A stretch of DNA of 64,000 nt. It comes from Onishia taeanensis. Lineage in GTDB: Bacteria; Pseudomonadota; Gammaproteobacteria; Pseudomonadales; Halomonadaceae. Every line of letters begins with the position of its first letter. The first letter of the stretch is position 1. This document shows positions 28,983 through 39,322 of the stretch, piece after piece. The notes under the pieces were generated by a model. That model was not told the DNA's origin. It was given only the letters and a program-made list of their open reading frames with translations, and ran no database searches. Both the position numbers and the translations under genes were made by a program. The stretch is from assembly GCF_003268885.1 (NCBI RefSeq), contig NZ_QLSX01000006.1:1-64000 (forward strand), written 5' to 3'.

Positions 28983-30731
28983 TCAGACCTGTGCGGGGCG
29001 GCGCTCCTCAAGCCAGCGCAGGGCCACGGTCCTGGCGCGGGCCAGGCTCGCGCAGTGCGTAAGCTCGCCGGCGGCGGTGCGAATCCCAACGCGGCGCAGC
29101 TTGACGATCTGACGGGGCGACAGGCCGATCAGAATCAGTGCGACATTCTGGCGGCGCATCTCCTCGACCATGCGGCGCAAGGCGACGAGCGCAGTGCCGT
29201 CGATGCTCGGCACGCCGTGCATGTCCACCATCACGATGCGGATGTCGGGGTCGACCATCTGCAGCGACGACAGGGCCTTCTCGGCGACGCCGAAGAACAT
29301 GGGCCCGTTGATGTCGTAGAGCGCCACTTGAGGCGGCAGGTCCTGCACCTCTGGGTGGCGGTCGAGCGGACGAGCCTTGGTCTGAGTTACCTGCGTCATG
29401 CGGCGGATGAACAGGGCAGCGGCCAGGCCCATGCCCACCGATACCGCCAGCACCATGTCGAACAGCACCGTCAGCGCGAAGCAGATCGCGAGGATAGCCA
29501 CATCGCCCGAGGGAGATGAGCGCAGGGTGTGTACGAACATCCGTGCCTCACTCATGTTCCAGGCGATGATGAACAGCAGCGCGGCCAGCGAGGTCATCGG
29601 TACCAGCCCCAGCAGCCCGGCCAGCGCGATCACCGCCAGCAAAACTACCAGTGCATGCACTACGGCTGCGATCGGCGAGCGCGCGCCGCTGCGGATGTTG
29701 GTGGCGGTGCGCGCCAGGGCGCCGGTGGCGGTGATGCCGCCGAAGAAGGGTACGGCAATGTTGCCAAGCCCAAGGCCAATCAGTTCGGCATTGGGGTCAT
29801 GTCGGGTGCGGGTCATGCCGTCGGCGACCACCGCACAGAGTAGCGACTCGATGGCCGCCAGCATGGCAATGGCGAAGGCCGGGCCGAGCAGCGAGCGGAT
29901 CAGGTCGAAGCTCACCGCCAGCGGTTCGCCTTCGGCGTTGGGCATATGCCAGGGCAGGGCGAAGCTCGGGGCGATTGGCGGAATGCCGACGCCGCTCTCA
30001 CCCTCGGCGTTCCATTGAAAGCGCGAGGCGATGGTGGCGATGTCGCCCCCCAGCCAGTGATTGGCGACGTAGGCGGCCAGTGCCCCGGCTACCAGTCCGA
30101 CCAGCGGCGCGGGCACCGGCGAGCGCAACCGCGGCCACAGCAGCAGCACCGCCAGGGTGATCACGCCGATAGCAAGCTCGGCAGGGCGAGTCTCGGGCAG
30201 CGCGGCCAGGATATTCGTCAGGCTTTCTGTGAAGTGCTCGCCCCGTGCCACCTCCAGGCCGAGGAAGTCCGGCACCTGCAGGGTGGCGATGACCACCGCG
30301 ATGCCGGCGGTAAACCCAAGCACCACCGGGTAGGGCACGAACTGGATCAGCGCGCCCAGGCGGGCGAGTCCCAGGCCGACCAGGATCATTCCCGCCATCA
30401 GCGTGGCAATCAACAGCCCGCCAAGCCCATAGTGCTGGACGATTGGCAGCAGGATCACCACGAAGGCAGCGGTGGGGCCCGACACGCTGAAGCGCGAACC
30501 GCCGGTGAGCGCGATCACGATGCCGGCGACGATGGCGGTATAGAGCCCGTGCTGGGGCGCCACCCCGGTGGCGATCGCCAGCGCCATCGATAGCGGCACT
30601 GCCACGATGCCGATGGTCAGGCCGGCCAGGATGTCATGGCGCAGGTCCCCGAACCCATAGCCCGCCTTCCAGGCGGCGAGCAGACCGGTGCCGAGGCGAG
30701 GGCGATGCGCAGGCGAAGAGGGGAGCGCCAT
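28983..30731 (-). CDS. SulP family anion transporter with STAS domain
   Basis: The 582-residue protein is an inner-membrane anion transporter of the SLC26/SulP family; members move sulfate, bicarbonate or dicarboxylates. The membrane domain shows DILAGLTIGIVAVPLSMALAIATGV and GPTAAFVVILLPI, which are family hallmarks. The C-terminal STAS domain includes IRIVMVDMHGVPSIDGTALVAL. The ATG at 30731 follows AAGGA, so an upstream in-frame ATG is rejected. The substrate cannot be inferred: no carbonic anhydrase or sulfur gene is adjacent. Confidence 0.92.
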   Translation of the reverse strand: MALPSSPAHRPRLGTGLLAAWKAGYGFGDLRHDILAGLTIGIVAVPLSMALAIATGVAPQHGLYTAIVAGIVIALTGGSRFSVSGPTAAFVVILLPIVQHYGLGGLLIATLMAGMILVGLGLARLGALIQFVPYPVVLGFTAGIAVVIATLQVPDFLGLEVARGEHFTESLTNILAALPETRPAELAIGVITLAVLLLWPRLRSPVPAPLVGLVAGALAAYVANHWLGGDIATIASRFQWNAEGESGVGIPPIAPSFALPWHMPNAEGEPLAVSFDLIRSLLGPAFAIAMLAAIESLLCAVVADGMTRTRHDPNAELIGLGLGNIAVPFFGGITATGALARTATNIRSGARSPIAAVVHALVVLLAVIALAGLLGLVPMTSLAALLFIIAWNMSEARMFVHTLRSSPSGDVAILAICFALTVLFDMVLAVSVGMGLAAALFIRRMTQVTQTKARPLDRHPEVQDLPPQVALYDINGPMFFGVAEKALSSLQMVDPDIRIVMVDMHGVPSIDGTALVALRRMVEEMRRQNVALILIGLSPRQIVKLRRVGIRTAAGELTHCASLARARTVALRWLEERRPAQV

Positions 30732-31119
30732 AATAAATCCTTCAAGCAGATGAGTGAGGGTCGCCAAGTGCGCGCAGGGCAAGCTCCTGGCCAGGCTGGC
30801 GTGCCTGGCCACCAGATAGCCGGGCCGCCAGCTAGATTGTGCGCCTGCCGAGCGTGCGATGAGACGATTTCCTTATATATGATCCCGGAAATCGGCGGTG
30901 AAGGAAAAGAGGCCTTTTGCCGCATTTCTGTCTCAGTTGTATCAGTTGTCGCAGGAGGCGCCTAAGCCGATCTCCATAAGCTGGCCGTCATAAGCAAGAC
31001 TCGCACAAGTCGTCGGCTGGCGGCGCGACGGTGCGCGGCTTCTACGCCCAAGGTCCTCTTGTTGCGGTATCCCCCAGCGTTAATGCTGGGGGAATATTCT
31101 TCGCAAGGGAACGACGTCC
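30732..31119. other. divergent intergenic region between sulP and the sigma-54 regulator
   Basis: The region must contain two promoters. The only clear structure is the hairpin at 31070-31093, listed separately. Confidence 0.4.
31070..31093 (+). promoter_or_regulatory. palindromic hairpin in the leader of the sigma-54 activator gene
   Basis: A perfect 9-bp inverted repeat, TCCCCCAGC/GCTGGGGGA, with loop GTTAAT ends 26 bases before the ATG at 31120. It could be an operator for autoregulation or an mRNA hairpin. It does not match the CGTCCG palindrome found downstream. Confidence 0.5.
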
Positions 31120-32514
<1,395 letters not shown>

Positions 32515-32516
32515 GG

Positions 32517-32534
32517 CGTCCGGTTTTTCGGACG
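32517..32534. promoter_or_regulatory. upstream activating sequence 1 (CGTCCG-N6-CGGACG)
   Basis: Perfect inverted repeat with a 6-base spacer, starting two bases after the activator gene stop. It is the first of three equivalent sites upstream of the sigma-54 promoter. Confidence 0.7.
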
Positions 32535-32535
32535 T

Positions 32536-32553
32536 CGTCCGGTTTTGCGGACA
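32536..32553. promoter_or_regulatory. upstream activating sequence 2 (CGTCCG-N6-CGGACA)
   Basis: This has the same geometry as site 1 and is offset from it by 19 bases, with one mismatch in the last position. Adjacent sites suggest cooperative binding by activator oligomers. Confidence 0.7.
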
Positions 32554-32583
32554 CCCATTAGCTGCCCTTTACGTGAGGTGAAA

Positions 32584-32617
32584 CCTGAGAGCGTCCGAAA
32601 TGCCGGACGCTCTCAGG
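32584..32617. promoter_or_regulatory. upstream activating sequence 3 inside a 14-bp-arm palindrome
   Basis: The core CGTCCG-N6-CGGACG at 32592-32609 is extended to 14-bp perfect arms. It ends about 90 bases before the -24 element. The longer palindrome could also act as the terminator of the activator gene, but no T tract follows. Confidence 0.7.
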
Positions 32618-32707
32618 CCGTGATGTGACGTCTTTCGGCCGCTCCTGGTCAAGAAAAGCGTTCGGTGTTGTATTTAAATTTATGAAAATAAAAGGTTTTG
32701 TCTTCCA

Positions 32708-32722
32708 TGGCGCCAATCTTGC
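32708..32722 (+). promoter_or_regulatory. sigma-54 (-24/-12) promoter of the TRAP operon
   Basis: TGGCGCCAATCTTGC has GG (32709-32710) and GC (32721-32722) separated by exactly ten bases, as RpoN promoters require. The expected transcription start is about 32733, some 70 bases before the dctP-like start. Confidence 0.85.
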
Positions 32723-32801
32723 GCCTGGTTCCGACGCCAAGGGTTCCATGCGACACCGCTGGAATAACCGCCTGTAATAAGAACAACGCAAGGAGTCATT
32801 C

Positions 32802-33887
32802 ATGCCAAGCCCGAACTTCCCACGTACGCTGCTCGCTGCCGGCATCGCCGCAGCCATGACCGCTGGGGTCGCCCTGCCGGCCATGGCTGACGGGCCCGAG
32901 CGCCTCGATGTCGCCAGTACGTTCTCGACGAAGAACTTCCTGGGGGCCGGTGCCGAGCACCTGTCCGAGGAGCTGCAAACCGCTACCGGTGGCGCCGTCA
33001 GCCTACGCGTTCACGAGCCGGGCGACCTGGTGCCGGCCTTCGAAGTCTTCAACTCCGTGTCTTCGGGCGCCATCCAGGCCGGCTGGGACTGGATGGGCTA
33101 CTGGGCCGGCACCGTGCCGATCACCAACCTCTACGGTGCGCTGCCGTTTGGTCCGTCTCCGGAAGCCTTCATGTCCTGGATGTGGTCCGGCGAAGGCACC
33201 GAACTGCTGCAGACCGAGTACGACAAGTACGGCGTCAAGGTCCTGCCCTGCTTCATCTCGCCCCAGGAAACCGGCGGCTGGTACAACAAGGAGATCAACA
33301 GCCCCTCTGATTTCGATGGCCTGTCGATGCGCATCTCCGGCCTCGGCGCCAAGGTGCTCAACCGGCTCGGCGCATCCACCCAGCTAGTGCCGGGCGGCGA
33401 GATCTATCTGGCGCTGGAACGTGGCCGTGTCGATGCCACCGAGTTCTCGGTGCCGCAGGTCGATGCCGCCATGGGCTTCGACGAAGTCGCCAAGTACTAC
33501 TACTTCCCGGGTTGGCACCAGAGCGCCAGCTGGTTCTCACTGCTAATCAACCAGGCGGTCTGGGATGAGTACAGCGATGAGCGCAAGGCACAGTTCGAAA
33601 CCGCCTGTCGCTCCACCCTGCAGTGGGCCATGGCCGAAGCGCCGCCTGAGCAGGTGCGTACCATCCATGCGCTGGAAGAGAAGGGCGTGGAAGTGCGTCG
33701 CTTCCCGGACGAGGTGCTCGATGCCCTGCAGCAGTCGTGGGTCGAGGTGCGCAAGGAAGAGATGGAAAACAACCCGGCCTTCGCCAAGGCGTATCGCTCG
33801 CTGATGAAGCACGCCGGCCTGATCGACGAATGGTATGAGCTGCAGGCCATGCCGGCGATCATCCCGCTCGACGAAGGGGATAGCTGA
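32802..33887 (+). CDS. TRAP transporter substrate-binding protein (DctP family)
   Basis: This 361-residue periplasmic protein delivers an organic acid to a TRAP permease. The signal peptide ends near residue 29 (PAMA|DGPERLDVAST). The DctP-fold landmarks are GLSMRISGLGAKVLNRLGAS, with the Arg that usually binds the substrate carboxylate, and ATEFSVPQVDAAMGFDEVAKYYYFPGWHQ. The last block resembles the alpha-keto acid and related COG4663-type binding proteins more than the C4-dicarboxylate DctP. AAGGAG precedes the ATG. It is the first gene of a three-gene operon behind the sigma-54 promoter. Confidence 0.92.
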   Translation: MPSPNFPRTLLAAGIAAAMTAGVALPAMADGPERLDVASTFSTKNFLGAGAEHLSEELQTATGGAVSLRVHEPGDLVPAFEVFNSVSSGAIQAGWDWMGYWAGTVPITNLYGALPFGPSPEAFMSWMWSGEGTELLQTEYDKYGVKVLPCFISPQETGGWYNKEINSPSDFDGLSMRISGLGAKVLNRLGASTQLVPGGEIYLALERGRVDATEFSVPQVDAAMGFDEVAKYYYFPGWHQSASWFSLLINQAVWDEYSDERKAQFETACRSTLQWAMAEAPPEQVRTIHALEEKGVEVRRFPDEVLDALQQSWVEVRKEEMENNPAFAKAYRSLMKHAGLIDEWYELQAMPAIIPLDEGDS

Positions 33888-34525
33888 TGACACGCGCCAC
33901 TCTCGCGCCCTGGCGTGAGCGTGGCGCGGCCGTGTGCGCCGCCCTGGGCCGACCGCTGGTCGGCCTGGGGCTGGTGGTGGGCCGACTCTCCAGCTGGCTG
34001 GTCATGCTGGTGATGTTGGCCGTGCTCACGACCGTGCTGCTCAACGCCCTGGGCGTCAATGAAATCGGCCACTGGGACACCAAGATCCTGCTGTTCGGCG
34101 ATGCCCTGACCATCAACAGCATCACCGAGCTGCAATGGCACCTCTTCGGCATCCTGACGCTGTTCGGTGGCACCTACGCCCTGCACCACGATACCCATGT
34201 GCGGGTCGACCTGGTCTATCAACGACTGTCTCTTCAGGGCCGCGCGATCATCGATGTGATCGGGCATCTGCTGATGCTGATTCCCTTCTGTCTGCTGATT
34301 GCCTGGCTCTCCAAGCATTTTGTGACCATGTCCTATATCTCTAACGAACAATCCAACTATGGCGGTCTCACCGACCGTTATCTGATCAAGGCCATGCTGC
34401 CGATCGGGCTCGTCTTTCTGGCGGTGGGCGCACTGGGTCAGGTCTTCGCCAAGCTTGCTGTGATCCTCGACCCGCGCAGCGCCGCCTCGGATTCCATCGC
34501 CGACGAAGGGGCGACCCATGGCTGA
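33887..34525 (+). CDS. TRAP transporter small permease (DctQ family)
   Basis: The 212-residue membrane protein has about four hydrophobic helices and the DctQ-like segment LFGGTYALHHDTHVRVDLVYQRLS. It forms the small integral subunit that pairs with DctM. Its ATG shares one base with the dctP stop (TGATG) and its end overlaps the next gene by eight bases, so all three proteins are made together. The N-terminus is somewhat longer than in typical DctQ proteins. Confidence 0.9.
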   Translation: MTRATLAPWRERGAAVCAALGRPLVGLGLVVGRLSSWLVMLVMLAVLTTVLLNALGVNEIGHWDTKILLFGDALTINSITELQWHLFGILTLFGGTYALHHDTHVRVDLVYQRLSLQGRAIIDVIGHLLMLIPFCLLIAWLSKHFVTMSYISNEQSNYGGLTDRYLIKAMLPIGLVFLAVGALGQVFAKLAVILDPRSAASDSIADEGATHG

Positions 34526-35870
34526 ATTCCTGAGTGAATACGCCCTCGCCCTGCTGATGGTCGTGACCCTGCTGGCGGGGATCTTTAGCGGCTATCCGGT
34601 TGCCTTCCTGCTCGGCGGCCTGGGCATCGTCTTCGCCTTCATCGGTGACATACCCGTGCCGTTTCTGGGCACCGTCGGCTCGCGGATCTTCGGCGGGGTG
34701 ATCGAAAACTGGCTGATGATCGCCATTCCGCTGTTCGTGTTCATGGGCCTGATGCTCGAGCGATCCGGGGTGGCCAAGCGCCTGCTGCTGACCCTGCAGC
34801 GACTCTTCGGGCGCACCCACGGCGGGCTTGCCGTGTCGGTGGCGATCCTTGGCGTGATCATGGCGGCCAGTACCGGCATCATCGGCGCCTCGGTGGTGAT
34901 GCTGGGTCTGCTCGCGCTGCCGGTGATGATGAAGCAGGGCTACCGGGCCGAGATGGCCTGTGGGGTCATCGCCGCCTCGGGCACCCTGGGCATTCTGATT
35001 CCACCCTCGATCATGCTGGTGCTGATGGGCTCGATCCTGCAGATCTCGGTGGGCGCGCTGTTCAAGGCCGCCCTGCTGCCGGGGCTGCTGCTCGGCGGGC
35101 TGTACATCGCCTATCTGCTGATCACCGCACGTATCCGCCCCGACTGGGCGCCGCTTGCCGACATGAACGACGTCGACCCGACGCCGCTGCCGATCGCGCT
35201 GCTGCGCGACCTGCTGGGCCCCTTCGTGCTGATCTTTGTGGTGCTGGGCTCGATCATGGCCGGCATCGCCACGCCCACCGAGGCCGCAGCCATCGGGGCG
35301 CTGGGCAGCCTTCTGCTGGCGCTGGCCATGCGCAGCCTGGACTTCGCCACCCTGCGCGAGGCGGTGCGCGATACCTCGCGTACCTCGGCGATGATCCTGT
35401 TTGTGGTCATTGGTGCCACCTGCTTTTCGGTGGTCTTCAAGCGCCTGGGCGGTGACTACATGATCGAAGAACTGATCACCGGCACTGGCCTTGGCCCCTA
35501 TGGGTTGATGCTGCTGATCATGGGCCTGATCTTCGTGCTCGGCTTCTTCCTCGAGTGGATCGAGATCAGCTTCGTGGTGCTGCCGCTGGTGGCCCCGGTG
35601 GTCGAGGTGCTGGACTTCGGTTACGGGCTCTCCGGTCAGGGGCTGCTGGTGTGGTTCGCGATCCTGGTCGCCATCAATTTGCAGACCAGTTTCCTGACGC
35701 CCCCCTTCGGCTATGCGCTCTTCTATCTCAAGGGCATCACCGAGGGCCAGGTGAGCATCCTGACCATCTATCGCTCGATCATTCCCTTCGTGCTGTTGCA
35801 GGTGACCGGACTGGTGCTGTGCATGGTCTTCCCGGCGCTGGTGCTGTGGCTGCCGGGGCTGATGCCCTGA
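34518..35870 (+). CDS. TRAP transporter large permease (DctM family)
   Basis: The 450-residue protein has about twelve membrane helices and is the sodium-coupled transport subunit of the TRAP system. Characteristic blocks are SGYPVAFLLGGLGIVFA, MAASTGIIGASVVMLGLLALPVMMKQGY and ASGTLGILIPPSIMLVLMG, plus a C-terminal FLTPPFGYALFYLKGI. It overlaps dctQ by eight bases. Sodium coupling fits a marine or halophilic host, though this is general family knowledge. Confidence 0.93.
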   Translation: MAEFLSEYALALLMVVTLLAGIFSGYPVAFLLGGLGIVFAFIGDIPVPFLGTVGSRIFGGVIENWLMIAIPLFVFMGLMLERSGVAKRLLLTLQRLFGRTHGGLAVSVAILGVIMAASTGIIGASVVMLGLLALPVMMKQGYRAEMACGVIAASGTLGILIPPSIMLVLMGSILQISVGALFKAALLPGLLLGGLYIAYLLITARIRPDWAPLADMNDVDPTPLPIALLRDLLGPFVLIFVVLGSIMAGIATPTEAAAIGALGSLLLALAMRSLDFATLREAVRDTSRTSAMILFVVIGATCFSVVFKRLGGDYMIEELITGTGLGPYGLMLLIMGLIFVLGFFLEWIEISFVVLPLVAPVVEVLDFGYGLSGQGLLVWFAILVAINLQTSFLTPPFGYALFYLKGITEGQVSILTIYRSIIPFVLLQVTGLVLCMVFPALVLWLPGLMP

Positions 35871-35938
35871 GCCTGAGCCCACAGGTGAGCGTGGGGCGGG
35901 TGTGAGGGCGACGTGAGGGCGGTTTTGAGGAACACTGC

Positions 35939-36517
35939 ATGCGCAAGCGGGTACTGATCGCCGGCGCCGACGAGATGCTCGAGGCCCTGGCGAGGGTCTT
36001 CCTCGAGGAAGGCGCCACTGTGGCACTGCTGACGCCGGATGCGGCGAGCCTCGAGTCGGTGCTGGACGGCCTGGGTGGCGAGCAGGCCGACCGCTTCGGC
36101 CTGGTGGCCGGGGAGGGCGCCCTCGATGAGCTGCTGGGGCGGCTGGGGCGACTCGATGTGCTGGTCTGTGCCCCGCGCACACTGCCTCCCGGCGAGCCGC
36201 TGGCCCGCAAGCTCGACGAGCAGGTGGTCGGCCCCTCGGGACTTTTGCAGGTCGCCAGGGCCTGGATGCAGAGCCGTGGGGGCGGTCGGCTGGTCGCCGT
36301 AGCACCGGATGGCGACAGCCAGGCGGCCAGCATGGTGCGTGAGGCCCTGGGGGCGCTGGTGCGCCGCCTCGCCGATGGCGGAGGGCCGGCGATTCGCGTC
36401 AACCTGCTATGCCCGAGGGGCGCCTCGAGCGCCTCCGTTGCCGACTGCACCCGCTTTCTGGCGGGTGGCGCCGGGCGAGCCATTACTGGCCAGGTGCTGC
36501 GCCTGTCGGATACCTGA
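35939..36517 (+). CDS. degenerate short-chain dehydrogenase/reductase-like protein
   Basis: The 192-residue protein has a Rossmann-like pattern of an SDR (RKRVLIAGADEMLEALARVFLEEGATVALL, then GRLDVLVCAPRT, then GGGRLVAVAPDG). However, the cofactor glycine motif TGxxxGxG is replaced by AGADEMLEA. The catalytic YxxxK is not seen where expected before EALGALVRRLADGGGPAIRVNLLCP. It is shorter than the usual 250 residues. Catalysis is therefore doubtful. It lies 68 bases after dctM with GAGGAA before the ATG and may be the fourth gene of the operon. Confidence 0.65.
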   Translation: MRKRVLIAGADEMLEALARVFLEEGATVALLTPDAASLESVLDGLGGEQADRFGLVAGEGALDELLGRLGRLDVLVCAPRTLPPGEPLARKLDEQVVGPSGLLQVARAWMQSRGGGRLVAVAPDGDSQAASMVREALGALVRRLADGGGPAIRVNLLCPRGASSASVADCTRFLAGGAGRAITGQVLRLSDT

Positions 36518-36580
36518 GTGCCGCCCCGGCCACTGTTCAACCTCTTCCCAATTGCTTTCCACAACCTCCCCTATGAACAG

Positions 36581-36616
36581 ACGGCCGGACCTGGCATGCC
36601 AGGTCCGGCCGTTGCT
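36581..36616 (+). terminator. terminator after the TRAP/SDR unit
   Basis: A fully self-complementary 32-base stretch (16-bp arms ACGGCCGGACCTGGCA and its complement, 36581-36612) is followed by TGCTTTC. Confidence 0.65.
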
Positions 36617-36755
36617 TTCTCGAACTGCTTTCTTGAACTGATGTCTCGAGTTGCCGTTGCTTGAGTGCTGGCTGTTGGTAGTGCCGGCGTTCGGCGGCGG
36701 TGACCGAACAGCGGCCGCTATCGTCTAGCCTTAATCACCGCTCAGCGATGACGCA

Positions 36756-36884
36756 CTACCAGCCCCAGAACAGCAGCCACCAGGCCCAGCCGATCACACC
36801 GATGGCCAGCGCCACGCCGGTGGTGGCCAGTGCCCGGCGCAACAGCGGTGCGCCGCTCGCCGAGGCGCTGTTCGCGTTGATCAT
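36756..36884 (-). CDS. possible small membrane protein (42 residues)
   Basis: A short minus-strand frame starts MINANSASASGAPLLRRAL and ends with one strongly hydrophobic, Trp-rich helix (VALAIGVIGWAWWLLFWGW). The helix is convincing as a membrane segment, but no ribosome-binding site precedes the ATG and I recognise no family. It faces away from tmcA. Confidence 0.35.
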   Translation of the reverse strand: MINANSASASGAPLLRRALATTGVALAIGVIGWAWWLLFWGW

Positions 36885-36961
36885 GACGGCCAGGGCCAGA
36901 CAGTGGCATGGCGCACATCCAGGGCTGGCCCCGCGATGGCGCTTGTCGCATGCTGTGCGCC

Positions 36962-39322
36962 ATGACCATCCCGCTCGACACCACTGAACCCATGACGCTT
37001 ATCGACCCGCCAAGCCGTGAGACGCTCTTGACCCTGCTTGGCCACCTCGCGGCTCGGCGCCACCGTGGCCTCCTGTGGATAGCCGCGCCTCAGGCCCTTG
37101 CCGTCTCCCGCGCCATCTCGCTTTGGCAGTCCCTCGGCTGGGCCGAGCCCTTGTGGCTGGGAGCGCCCCAGGCGAGCCTCGAGGCGGCAGGCATCGACCC
37201 ACTGCCTGCCGCCAAGGCGCGCACTCGGCTGGGCGGCGAGCACGACCTGGCGGTGATCGATGCCGTCTCTGCCCAGGCCGGCTTCGACCCCGAGGCCTTC
37301 GGCGCGGTCTCCGGCACCCTGCGTGCAGGCGGCTTATTGGTGCTGCTGACACCGCCTGACTGGGGCGCCCGGCCGGATGGCGACTATGCCCGCCTCGCCG
37401 AGCATCCCTATCAGGCCGAGGAGCTGAGTTCGCGCTACCTGGCGCGCCTTGCCCGGCTACTGTCGGCCTCGCAGGAGATTGCGATCTGGCCGCCTGATGG
37501 CCGCCTGCAGCTTGCTGAGCCGCTGGCTCAGGCGATGGAAACGGCGATAGCAACGGAGAAAGGGACGGATGCGTCGACCGGTGATGCCAGCGAGGCGGCG
37601 CCAGAGGATGCCGACTGCGCCACCGCGGATCAGGCGAGAGCGGTTGAGCGTCTCATGCGGCTGAAGCGCCGGCGCCCACTGGTGCTCACCGCCGACCGGG
37701 GCCGGGGCAAGAGTGCGGCGCTGGGCATCGCCTGTGCCCGGCTGCTCGCCGGTGGTGAAACACAGGTTCTGATCACCGCGCCGCGCCCGGCGGCGGTGGA
37801 GGCGCTCTTCGAGCGCCTGGCGGTGCTCTGCCCCAGTGGGCGGCGGCAGGCCAACGTCTTTGCACTTGAGGCGGCACACGAGGCAGCGGACTCGCCCTGC
37901 GTGCGCTTTATCGCCCCGGACGCCCTGGTGGAATTGGCCCTGGCCGGCGAGCAGGGCGGGGCCGGCGCGCTGCTGCTGGTCGACGAGGCGGCGGCGATTC
38001 CCGCGCCGCTGCTTTCGCGGATGCTGGCCGCCTTCCCGCGCATCGCCTTCGCCACCACCGTCCACGGCTACGAGGGCTCGGGCCGCGGTTTCGCGCTGCG
38101 TTTTCGTGAGCATCTGGATCGCCAGACCCCTGGCTGGCAGGGCCTGCATCTGGCGACACCGATCCGTTGGGCCGCGGATGATCCCCTGGAGCGGCTCACC
38201 GACAGGCTGCTGATGCTCAACGCCGAGCCTGACGAGGCAGATGACAAGGCCGAGCCTGACGCCAGCTCGAGAGCAACAGGTGAATCGTCGATCATCGAGT
38301 GCTCCCGGGACGCTCTGGCGGCTGACGAGTCGCGACTCAGAGCGCTATTCGGCCTGCTGGTCCAGGCCCATTACCGCACCCAGCCAAGTGACCTGCGCCG
38401 GCTGCTCGACGGCCCCGGCGGCCGGGTGGTGTGCCTGGGTGAGCCGCACACTAGGGCCGTGGCCCTGACCGTGGACGAAGGCGGCTTTGCGCCTGATCTG
38501 GCCGAGCAGGTGGCCCGCGGCGAACGGCGTCCTCGCGGTCACCTGCTGGCGCAATCCCTGGCGGCTCACGCCGGCAGCCGAGGCGCGCTGACCTCACGGG
38601 TTCGGCGCGTGATGCGCATCGCCGTGGACCCCCGCGCTCGGCGTCTCGGCCATGGCCGGGCGCTGCTGGCTGCTGAGCTTGCCAAGGCAAGCGAGGAGGA
38701 TATCGATCTGTTCGGTGCCAGCTTCGGCGCCGAGGCGGGGCTGATGGCCTTCTGGCAGCAAAGCGGCTTTCGTGCGGTGCGCCTGGGCCTGACTCGCGAG
38801 GCGTCCAGCGGCGAGCACGCGCTGATGGTCGCTCGGGCCACCAGCGCCCGTGGCGATGAGCTGCTCTCTGGTCTCGCCGCGAGTTTCCAGGCGCTGCTGC
38901 CGAGCCTGTTGGCCTTCGAGCTCAAGGATTTCGACCCGGCCCTGGCGGCAGACTTGCTGGCCGAAGGGCCGGTGGCCGAGCTGGATGTTGCCATGCTCAG
39001 GGACATCGACGACGTGGCGCTGGGGCACCGGGCGCCGGCGCTGGCACGCCCGGCCCTTCAGGCCCTGGTGCGTCGCGGGCTCGCGCTGCGACGTCAGGAC
39101 GGCGATGCGGTCGCGCGCCCCTCAGCGGATCTGCTCGATGAGAAAGGCGTTGCGGAAGCTGCTGACGAGGATGCCTGGATGCTGGTCGCCGTACTCTTTC
39201 AGGGCCGAGACTCAGCTTGGCTGGCTCGACGCCTCGGCTTGCCCGGTCGGCGCCAGGTCGAATCCCGCCTGCGCCAGACGCTGGGTCGCTGGCGCCTGCT
39301 GTTTGCGCCGCCCAAGGGATAA
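36962..39322 (+). CDS. tmcA: tRNA(Met) cytidine acetyltransferase TmcA
   Basis: TmcA makes N4-acetylcytidine at the wobble position of elongator tRNA-Met using acetyl-CoA and ATP. The N-terminal domain is followed by a RecD-like helicase module with Walker A TADRGRGKSAALG and Walker B LLLVDEAAAIPAPLL. A GNAT domain has RIAVDPRARRLGHGRALL, and a C-terminal tRNA-binding part follows. The length of about 786 residues is slightly above the usual 670-720, owing to charged insertions near 195-220 and 420-445. Several in-frame ATGs exist at the start (36908, 36962, 36992) without a clear ribosome-binding site. Confidence 0.92.
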   Translation: MTIPLDTTEPMTLIDPPSRETLLTLLGHLAARRHRGLLWIAAPQALAVSRAISLWQSLGWAEPLWLGAPQASLEAAGIDPLPAAKARTRLGGEHDLAVIDAVSAQAGFDPEAFGAVSGTLRAGGLLVLLTPPDWGARPDGDYARLAEHPYQAEELSSRYLARLARLLSASQEIAIWPPDGRLQLAEPLAQAMETAIATEKGTDASTGDASEAAPEDADCATADQARAVERLMRLKRRRPLVLTADRGRGKSAALGIACARLLAGGETQVLITAPRPAAVEALFERLAVLCPSGRRQANVFALEAAHEAADSPCVRFIAPDALVELALAGEQGGAGALLLVDEAAAIPAPLLSRMLAAFPRIAFATTVHGYEGSGRGFALRFREHLDRQTPGWQGLHLATPIRWAADDPLERLTDRLLMLNAEPDEADDKAEPDASSRATGESSIIECSRDALAADESRLRALFGLLVQAHYRTQPSDLRRLLDGPGGRVVCLGEPHTRAVALTVDEGGFAPDLAEQVARGERRPRGHLLAQSLAAHAGSRGALTSRVRRVMRIAVDPRARRLGHGRALLAAELAKASEEDIDLFGASFGAEAGLMAFWQQSGFRAVRLGLTREASSGEHALMVARATSARGDELLSGLAASFQALLPSLLAFELKDFDPALAADLLAEGPVAELDVAMLRDIDDVALGHRAPALARPALQALVRRGLALRRQDGDAVARPSADLLDEKGVAEAADEDAWMLVAVLFQGRDSAWLARRLGLPGRRQVESRLRQTLGRWRLLFAPPKG

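Follow-up and report, generated by a model that had tools for sequence, protein, structure and literature searches.

One-component activators that drive sigma-54 promoters from upstream sites are regulators of a known kind (compare the Desulfovibrio regulome; PMC4641369). In Onishia taeanensis, three copies of one palindrome are crowded between the gene of such an activator and a -24/-12 promoter that precedes a TRAP transporter operon, which raises the question of whether these copies are the operator of the neighbouring activator and, if so, which acid the resulting switch would sense and import. We have addressed this in the window, that is, the whole stretch of 64,000 nucleotides under analysis, in the remainder of the genome and in a set of related loci. 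The locus is, in our judgement, likely to be a self-contained one-component sigma-54 switch, resembling HbcR, for the uptake of (R)-3-hydroxybutyrate or a close hydroxy or keto acid; its features are collected in Table 1.

Table 1. Features of the activator and TRAP transporter locus, with positions counted from the first base of the window.
Feature	Position	Strand	Basis and remarks
PAS-AAA+-Fis sigma-54 activator, HbcR-like, 464 aa, GAFTGA intact, recognition helix AKSS	31120..32514	+	Pfam, loop and helix reading
Distal palindrome 1 (doublet), putative enhancer site	32517..32534	.	Exact match, CGTCCGGTTTTTCGGACG; centre 183 bp upstream of -24 GG
Distal palindrome 2 (doublet, 19 bp from site 1), putative enhancer site	32536..32553	.	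Exact match, CGTCCGGTTTTGCGGACA; centre 164 bp upstream of -24 GG
Longer inverted repeat, 14-bp arms, around site 3	32584..32617	.	Sequence, arm length, fold
Proximal palindrome 3, putative enhancer site	32592..32609	.	Exact match, CGTCCGAAATGCCGGACG; centre 108 bp upstream of -24 GG
-24/-12 sigma-54 promoter	32708..32722	+	Sequence, TGGCGCCAATCTTGC; top-scoring in the intergenic region
dctP, TRAP solute-binding protein, TakP-like	32802..33887	+	Pfam DctP (PF03480) over cut-off
dctQ, TRAP small permease	33887..34525	+	Pfam DctQ (PF04290) over cut-off
dctM, TRAP large permease	34518..35870	+	Pfam DctM (PF06808) over cut-off
SDR-fold protein, 192 aa, apparent 3-hydroxybutyrate dehydrogenase derivative without YxxxK and GxxxGxG	35939..36517	+	Alignment; dN/dS

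The activator is matched in Pfam by PAS_4, Sigma54_activat (PF00158, 4.1e-70), AAA_lid_14 and HTH_8 (PF02954, 39.6 bits against a cut-off of 22), and both features by which a bEBP is recognised, a sigma-54 AAA+ domain with a GAFTGA loop and a Fis-type DNA-binding domain, are present. The first-pass annotation of this DNA had described the protein as lacking a receiver; the Pfam search indeed returned no receiver match, with PAS_4 instead, and the protein is not of the receiver-bearing response regulator type of DctD and NtrC. The DctB/DctD carboxylate transporters are likewise under sigma-54 control by an AAA+ activator with tandem upstream sites, whereas DctD itself belongs to the response regulators, with a receiver, and is paired with a sensor kinase. 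NCBIfam gave 30 models matching the activator, and all 25 of those listed fell short of their cut-offs; the PrdR model (NF041552) gave 383.1 bits where 795 is the cut-off.

The promoter has the exact GG-N10-GC spacing that had been read from it, and its score, computed with weights that we set from the known consensus, was reached by 6 of 1000 Markov shuffles. The genome contains one match to rpoN. Positions 31,092 to 34,109 hold no match to the IHF consensus with up to one mismatch, and positions 30,000 to 37,000 no match to an Rfam family. Promoter, sites and rpoN are all there, and transcription by the activator with sigma-54 from upstream sites is predicted; the proposal of a sigma-54 TRAP regulon stands at the level of sequence on the GAFTGA loop, rpoN, the exact promoter spacing, the sites at enhancer distance and the conservation described below.

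A pattern search of the window finds CGTCCG-N6-CGGACR three times in 93 bases, between the activator gene and the promoter, just as first reported. The description of the three palindromes as identical has to be narrowed to the arms of two of them: sites 1 and 3 have their arms in common, but site 2 ends in A and the spacers differ. Measured from the -24 GG, the site centres (Table 1) lie within the enhancer range of about 100 to 190 bases that had been estimated. Over 300 resamples of the 64-kb window by a dinucleotide Markov model, the exact pattern on the plus strand occurred 0.027 times on average and once at most, as against the three occurrences observed, and the genome-wide motif search that had been suggested as a check places the exact motif at these three positions only in 3,736,068 bases; a reversed control pattern has 4 (forward) and 5 (reverse) occurrences elsewhere in the same genome. 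This uniqueness, and the retention of the pairing across relatives, bear out the suggestion that operator and regulator form a self-contained pair. Allowing up to two mismatches gave no enrichment, with 17 matches on both strands of the window against 23.9 expected and 232 in the genome against 865 for the control, and the relaxed site combined with TGG-N10-GC was found in the genome at 8 and 8 places compared with 17 and 18 for the controls. The relaxed searches do not exceed the reversed control and so provide no grounds for a wider regulon; specificity therefore resides in the exact, clustered sites. In a second genome of the same species (locus L004 of G167), site 1 carries one core mismatch and sites 2 and 3 none.

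Relatives were gathered by a family-wide search of 275 genomes and by a scan of named genomes (34 loci) covering Onishia, Modicisalibacter, Halomonas, Cobetia, Marinospirillum, Amphritea, Marinomonas, Terasakiispira and a Halomonadaceae bacterium. The resulting set of 46 loci consists of the window, L004, L008, L036 to L069, L085 to L092 (eight same-family loci whose activators are about 43% identical, chosen from a longer list) and the paralogue L098, 66% identical. L099 was left out as a duplicate of L063, and L093 to L097 and L100, whose activators are more distant and which showed neither a dctP match nor such a site downstream of the activator gene, were not counted, though L100 has one site with one mismatch upstream of it.

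These relatives extend the observation beyond the first reading, to a doublet spaced at 19 bp and a proximal site that is nearly fixed within each clade. Two TCCG-N6-CGGA sites spaced at 19 bp, each with one mismatch at most, form a doublet in 24 of the 46 loci, where shuffled sequences average 0.0001 each, and 38 of the 46 have a proximal site 60 to 125 bp from the best GG-N10-G element. The distance of this site to the -24 element clusters by clade at 106-117, 94-97, 81-82 or 73-74 bp: it is 107-108 bp in Onishia (4/4 loci), 106-117 bp in Modicisalibacter and kin (8/9), 106 bp in Cobetia (2/2), 107 bp in Terasakiispira (1/1), 95-97 bp in Marinospirillum (3/5), 94-95 bp in Amphritea (3/3), 95 bp in the paralogue L098 (1/1), 81-82 bp in Marinomonas (8/8) and 73-74 bp in L085 to L092 (8/8). 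In both Cobetia loci the doublet lies 257-284 bp from the promoter, some 90-100 bp farther upstream, and the proximal site is still at 106. Searched without mismatches, the doublet pattern turns up in 15 of the 275 genomes of the family, 12 of which have it at the activator gene or no more than 3 kb from it; its reversed control has no match. Away from the activator locus the pattern was seen in G067, G090 and G098, with nearly the same sequence in all three, which is perhaps coding.

The letters of the half-sites were compared with the recognition helix of the activator by scoring the letter before TCCG in mismatch-free sites, of which 12 half-sites came from loci whose helix the search pattern missed. 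With an AKSS helix, G precedes TCCG in 66 of 76 half-sites, whereas T does so with GKTT (16 of 18) and SKTS (5 of 6), and the PRSV helix goes with TG (14 of 16). GKST is less clear (T in 4 of 6), and SKST is mixed, G being found 9 times and T 5 times among 18 half-sites. The half-site letters thus tend to follow the recognition helix, as direct recognition would predict, in a comparison that is confounded with kinship. L098 (G145), a second activator-TRAP copy with the helix SKSS, has a shifted operator, GTCCA-N6-TGGAC, as read by eye.

The inverted repeat around site 3 makes an RNA hairpin also conceivable, and the palindromes in general might be hairpins that end or insulate the activator transcript rather than sites for a protein. 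The fold of the stretch is better than those of its shuffles (z -3.87, equalled by 0 of 200), the arms of site 3 reach 14 bp in L004 as in the window, and at L049 (the L023 locus) the pairing extends 20 bp past the TCCG core and is accompanied by runs of A and T; in L046 and L047, too, a leftover site sits within longer arms. Yet the window sites have no T tract and no terminator-like match, and in just 6 of the 104 listed sites does pairing continue past the TCCG core by more than 4 bases. Were a hairpin under selection, moreover, pairing would be preserved rather than letters and distance, whereas what we find is a nearly clade-fixed promoter spacing, a recurrent 19-bp doublet and letters that tend to follow the recognition helix. 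We therefore consider hairpins in place of protein-binding sites very unlikely, and a terminator as the main role of the palindromes was set aside on the terminator search, fold and arm-length data. The proximal palindrome of L022 and L023 lies inside a long inverted repeat, which in L023 is flanked by runs of A and T and resembles a terminator acting in both directions.

The loop of the activator differs from GAFTGA in five of the 46 loci, the GAYTG of L085 to L092 being grouped with intact loops: it reads GAFAGA in L008, GTFAGA in L045, GAFSGA in L046 and L047, and GAFTSA, with a frameshift, in L063, and these changes need two separate losses on a tree of 45 rows. A -24/-12 element, called as a GG-N10-G element scoring at least 18 (a cut-off chosen after seeing the scores), is found in 40 of the 41 loci with an intact loop and in none of the five with a changed one, where the best GG-N10-G score is 16.9; nor does any of these five have a proximal site at 60-125 bp. 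The association gives p 4e-6 in a Fisher test, which ignores kinship where the losses that are independent number only two. The exception, L053, has an intact loop, no promoter and no linked dctP. Some of the promoter calls are weak, those of L048, L049, L051 and L066 being matched by 145 to 223 of 1000 shuffles and that of L098 by 60 of 1000, though in all five of these loci a proximal site lies 95 or 106-107 bp from the promoter. A change of threonine to serine in the loop need not abolish activity, and some changed-loop loci may therefore be weakened rather than dead. The two independent groups in which the loop is changed and the promoter missing amount to natural experiments on the abandonment of sigma-54 control.

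In L008, where loop and promoter are gone, two exact palindromes and one degenerate copy are nevertheless retained. Another TRAP operon stands in place at this locus (L008/L102, G165, of the same genus; dctP 41% identical), and its flanks are as in the window, with a sulP relative on one side and, by eye, a tmcA relative on the other. The Halomonas clade of L045 to L047 and L063 has one leftover palindrome in each locus, and no sigma-54 promoter was found there.

The retention of sites in L008 despite the changed loop is what might be expected if a different regulator, for instance a repressor, bound the palindromes; palindromes with CCG/CGG arms are common types of operator, and binding by the activator is itself putative. 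Set against this, the sites adjoin the activator gene in nearly all of the loci compared and tend to vary with its recognition helix, a single site is left in the changed-loop Halomonas clade, and the genome has no further copy of the exact motif, so that we regard a different regulator, too, as very unlikely. For the activator itself, the occupancy of the sites, activation by looping and the transcription of dctPQM with import of its substrate are, taken jointly, highly probable.

What the acid would be is a separate matter. The operon encodes all three subunits, DctP, DctQ and DctM, of a DctP-type TRAP transporter, and the nearest solved relatives of its DctP include keto-acid binding proteins. 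The well-studied solute-binding protein of the same type is that of TakPQM, the alpha-keto-acid TRAP transporter of Rhodobacter sphaeroides. Tyr100, Glu156, Arg177, Glu214, Phe215, His239 and Gln240 (TakP numbering by alignment) are found in 47 of 47 aligned DctP rows, which represent 45 distinct loci, with the window entered twice and the duplicate L099 included. The arginine at aligned position 177 is one that we take to have a role in TakP as well. Among the TakP residues named in the published account, Tyr100, Gln156, Glu214, Trp215 and Glu240 (PMC1839085), Tyr100 and Glu214 of the pyruvate/sodium site are kept in the window-type DctP, whereas Gln156 is replaced by Glu, Glu240 by Gln and Trp215 by Phe throughout the alignment.

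Similar solute-binding proteins occur in 14 plasmid records, two of which were inspected: L143 has the same binding-site residues beside a D-lactate dehydrogenase, and L142, from a Sagittula plasmid, has them in a TRAP operon with a degradative HMG-CoA reductase, possibly a mevalonate transporter. The L142 protein is 56% identical, and a gene for a GntR-type regulator adjoins its operon. Because the residues recur beside both enzymes, the DctP binding site alone does not single out the acid. Nor does the identity of the activator settle it. Among 12 records of plasmid-borne activators with 41-45% identity, the two inspected lie upstream of TRAP genes whose solute-binding proteins are without the residue pattern (Salipiger) and upstream of an alcohol dehydrogenase operon (Metabacillus), so that an identity of 40-45% does not by itself fix a function.

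Among the relatives there is a ketone-body context. Twenty SDR genes following dctM were compared, and seven, from Marinospirillum, Amphritea, Marinomonas and Terasakiispira, have both SDR motifs; four of four tested exceed the cut-off of the 3-hydroxybutyrate dehydrogenase model TIGR01963 (331-346 bits against 307). An acetoacetate-CoA ligase, over its cut-off, is the next gene after the TRAP operon in L130; in L128 a partial one, below cut-off and cut by the end of the locus, follows the dehydrogenase; and both subunits of a 3-oxoacid CoA-transferase, with a thiolase, are found at a distance of one gene from the activator in L057 of Marinomonas.

A further locus, L135 (in a 6.2-Mb genome), combines an activator with an OprD porin, a membrane ORF and a 3-hydroxybutyrate dehydrogenase (352 bits), and presumably resembles the hbcR locus of Pseudomonas. 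Its activator is 42% identical to that of the window over residues 13-461, with like domains, and the locus shares with ours a -24/-12 element and palindromes spaced by N6. The palindromes are two GTCTC-N6-GAGAC sites, of which the one nearer the promoter stands 73 bp from the -24 GG, a spacing shared with L085 to L092. The locus differs in its half-site, GTCTC where the window has TCCG, and in having the membrane ORF (463 aa, unmatched in Pfam and NCBIfam at the limits applied) where the window has a TRAP transporter. HbcR (PA2005; PFLU2630), the activator of (R)-3-hydroxybutyrate catabolism in Pseudomonas, is likewise a one-component protein with PAS, AAA+ and Fis domains, PA2005 being likened here by description and the identity just given being that to the L135 activator. 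The linkage to an intact dehydrogenase in the seven relatives is a further likeness, set against a copy without catalytic motifs in the clade of the window.

HbcR is reported to be activated by (R)-3-hydroxybutyrate (PMC10482368). Another paper places the PAS domain of PA2005 at residues 17-123 and assigns it to the autoinducer-binding type by two residues (PMC8694187), an assignment that does not fit a simple 3-hydroxybutyrate sensor. The HbcR-like kinship and the ketone-body context are new relative to the first reading, and no description of a TRAP regulon of the window type was found in the literature searched, of which coverage was partial, the available parts of PMC12316311, PMC13390443, PMC12632250 and PMC9038784 containing nothing on one.

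That the substrate is some short hydroxy or keto monocarboxylate we hold with considerable confidence, and we lean slightly towards 3-hydroxybutyrate, or acetoacetate, in particular. The same switch might instead serve lactate, pyruvate, another keto acid or mevalonate, a rather less probable but serious alternative, to which the keto-acid binders among the closest solved proteins, the recurrence of residues 100, 156, 177, 214, 215, 239 and 240 in lactate and HMG-CoA contexts and the want of catalytic motifs, and so of an active dehydrogenase, in the window operon all point. It has to contend with the ketone-body genes that accompany TRAP operons linked to the activator in Marinomonas, Marinospirillum, Amphritea and Terasakiispira and in two genomes further removed, and with the alignment of the window SDR gene to the same 3-hydroxybutyrate dehydrogenase. 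The earlier suggestion that the transported acid is what the PAS domain senses is plausible, with (R)-3-hydroxybutyrate or acetoacetate as candidate ligand.

The SDR gene is the odd member of the locus. YxxxK and GxxxGxG are absent from 13 of 13 such genes, three of them read in part, in Onishia (including the window), Modicisalibacter, Cobetia and kin, although the gene aligns with intact 3-hydroxybutyrate dehydrogenases, and in the SDR rows after dctM the clade of the window has no intact dehydrogenase in the operon. In seven of eight pairs its dN/dS is 0.01-0.18, close to what dctM, dctP and the activator gene show, whereas the pair with Cobetia gives 0.52 for the SDR gene and 0.17-0.27 for those three. 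The low dN/dS argues that this relative is retained by selection despite the missing catalytic motifs, and it is thus a candidate for a conserved pseudo-enzyme. The best 3-hydroxybutyrate dehydrogenase gene elsewhere in the genome (C7:72064) has one site with one mismatch and no such operator in the 3744 surrounding bases, which also hold no -24/-12 element scoring at least 21 on the strand of the gene and one on the other strand. It is conceivable, though we think it improbable, that the motif-less protein has become a regulatory or ligand-holding partner of the switch, and that sensor, palindrome code, GAFTGA loop, promoter and TRAP operon evolve and are dismantled as one module; if true, this dehydrogenase relative would be a pseudo-enzyme partner of a 3-hydroxybutyrate switch.

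On the reading that we favour, the switch would work as HbcR does in Pseudomonas, but with a TRAP transporter. The ligand of the PAS domain would be a small hydroxy or keto acid, with (R)-3-hydroxybutyrate or acetoacetate the likeliest, and dimers of the Fis-type helix-turn-helix would occupy the 19-bp doublet and the proximal palindrome, as conservation and co-variation suggest. The AAA+ ring would contact RNA polymerase-sigma-54 at the -24/-12 element through looping of the DNA and remodel it by way of the GAFTGA loop, a mode of action that is established for this class of protein and that is supported for this locus by the coupled change of loop and promoter; the dctPQM operon would be transcribed and the acid imported.

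As far as sequence comparison can take it, the locus appears to be a well-supported addition to the known class of one-component sigma-54 systems, with a clear evolutionary record and, as its odd feature, a conserved enzyme relative that has lost its motifs. For an uptake system of halophilic bacteria, relatives of the Halomonas strains employed in making PHB bioplastic, it offers a promoter, a DNA code and a testable inducer, 3-hydroxybutyrate. Should the proposed substrate be correct, a function would be assigned to a subgroup of TRAP transporters that family models name only for its DctP-type components.
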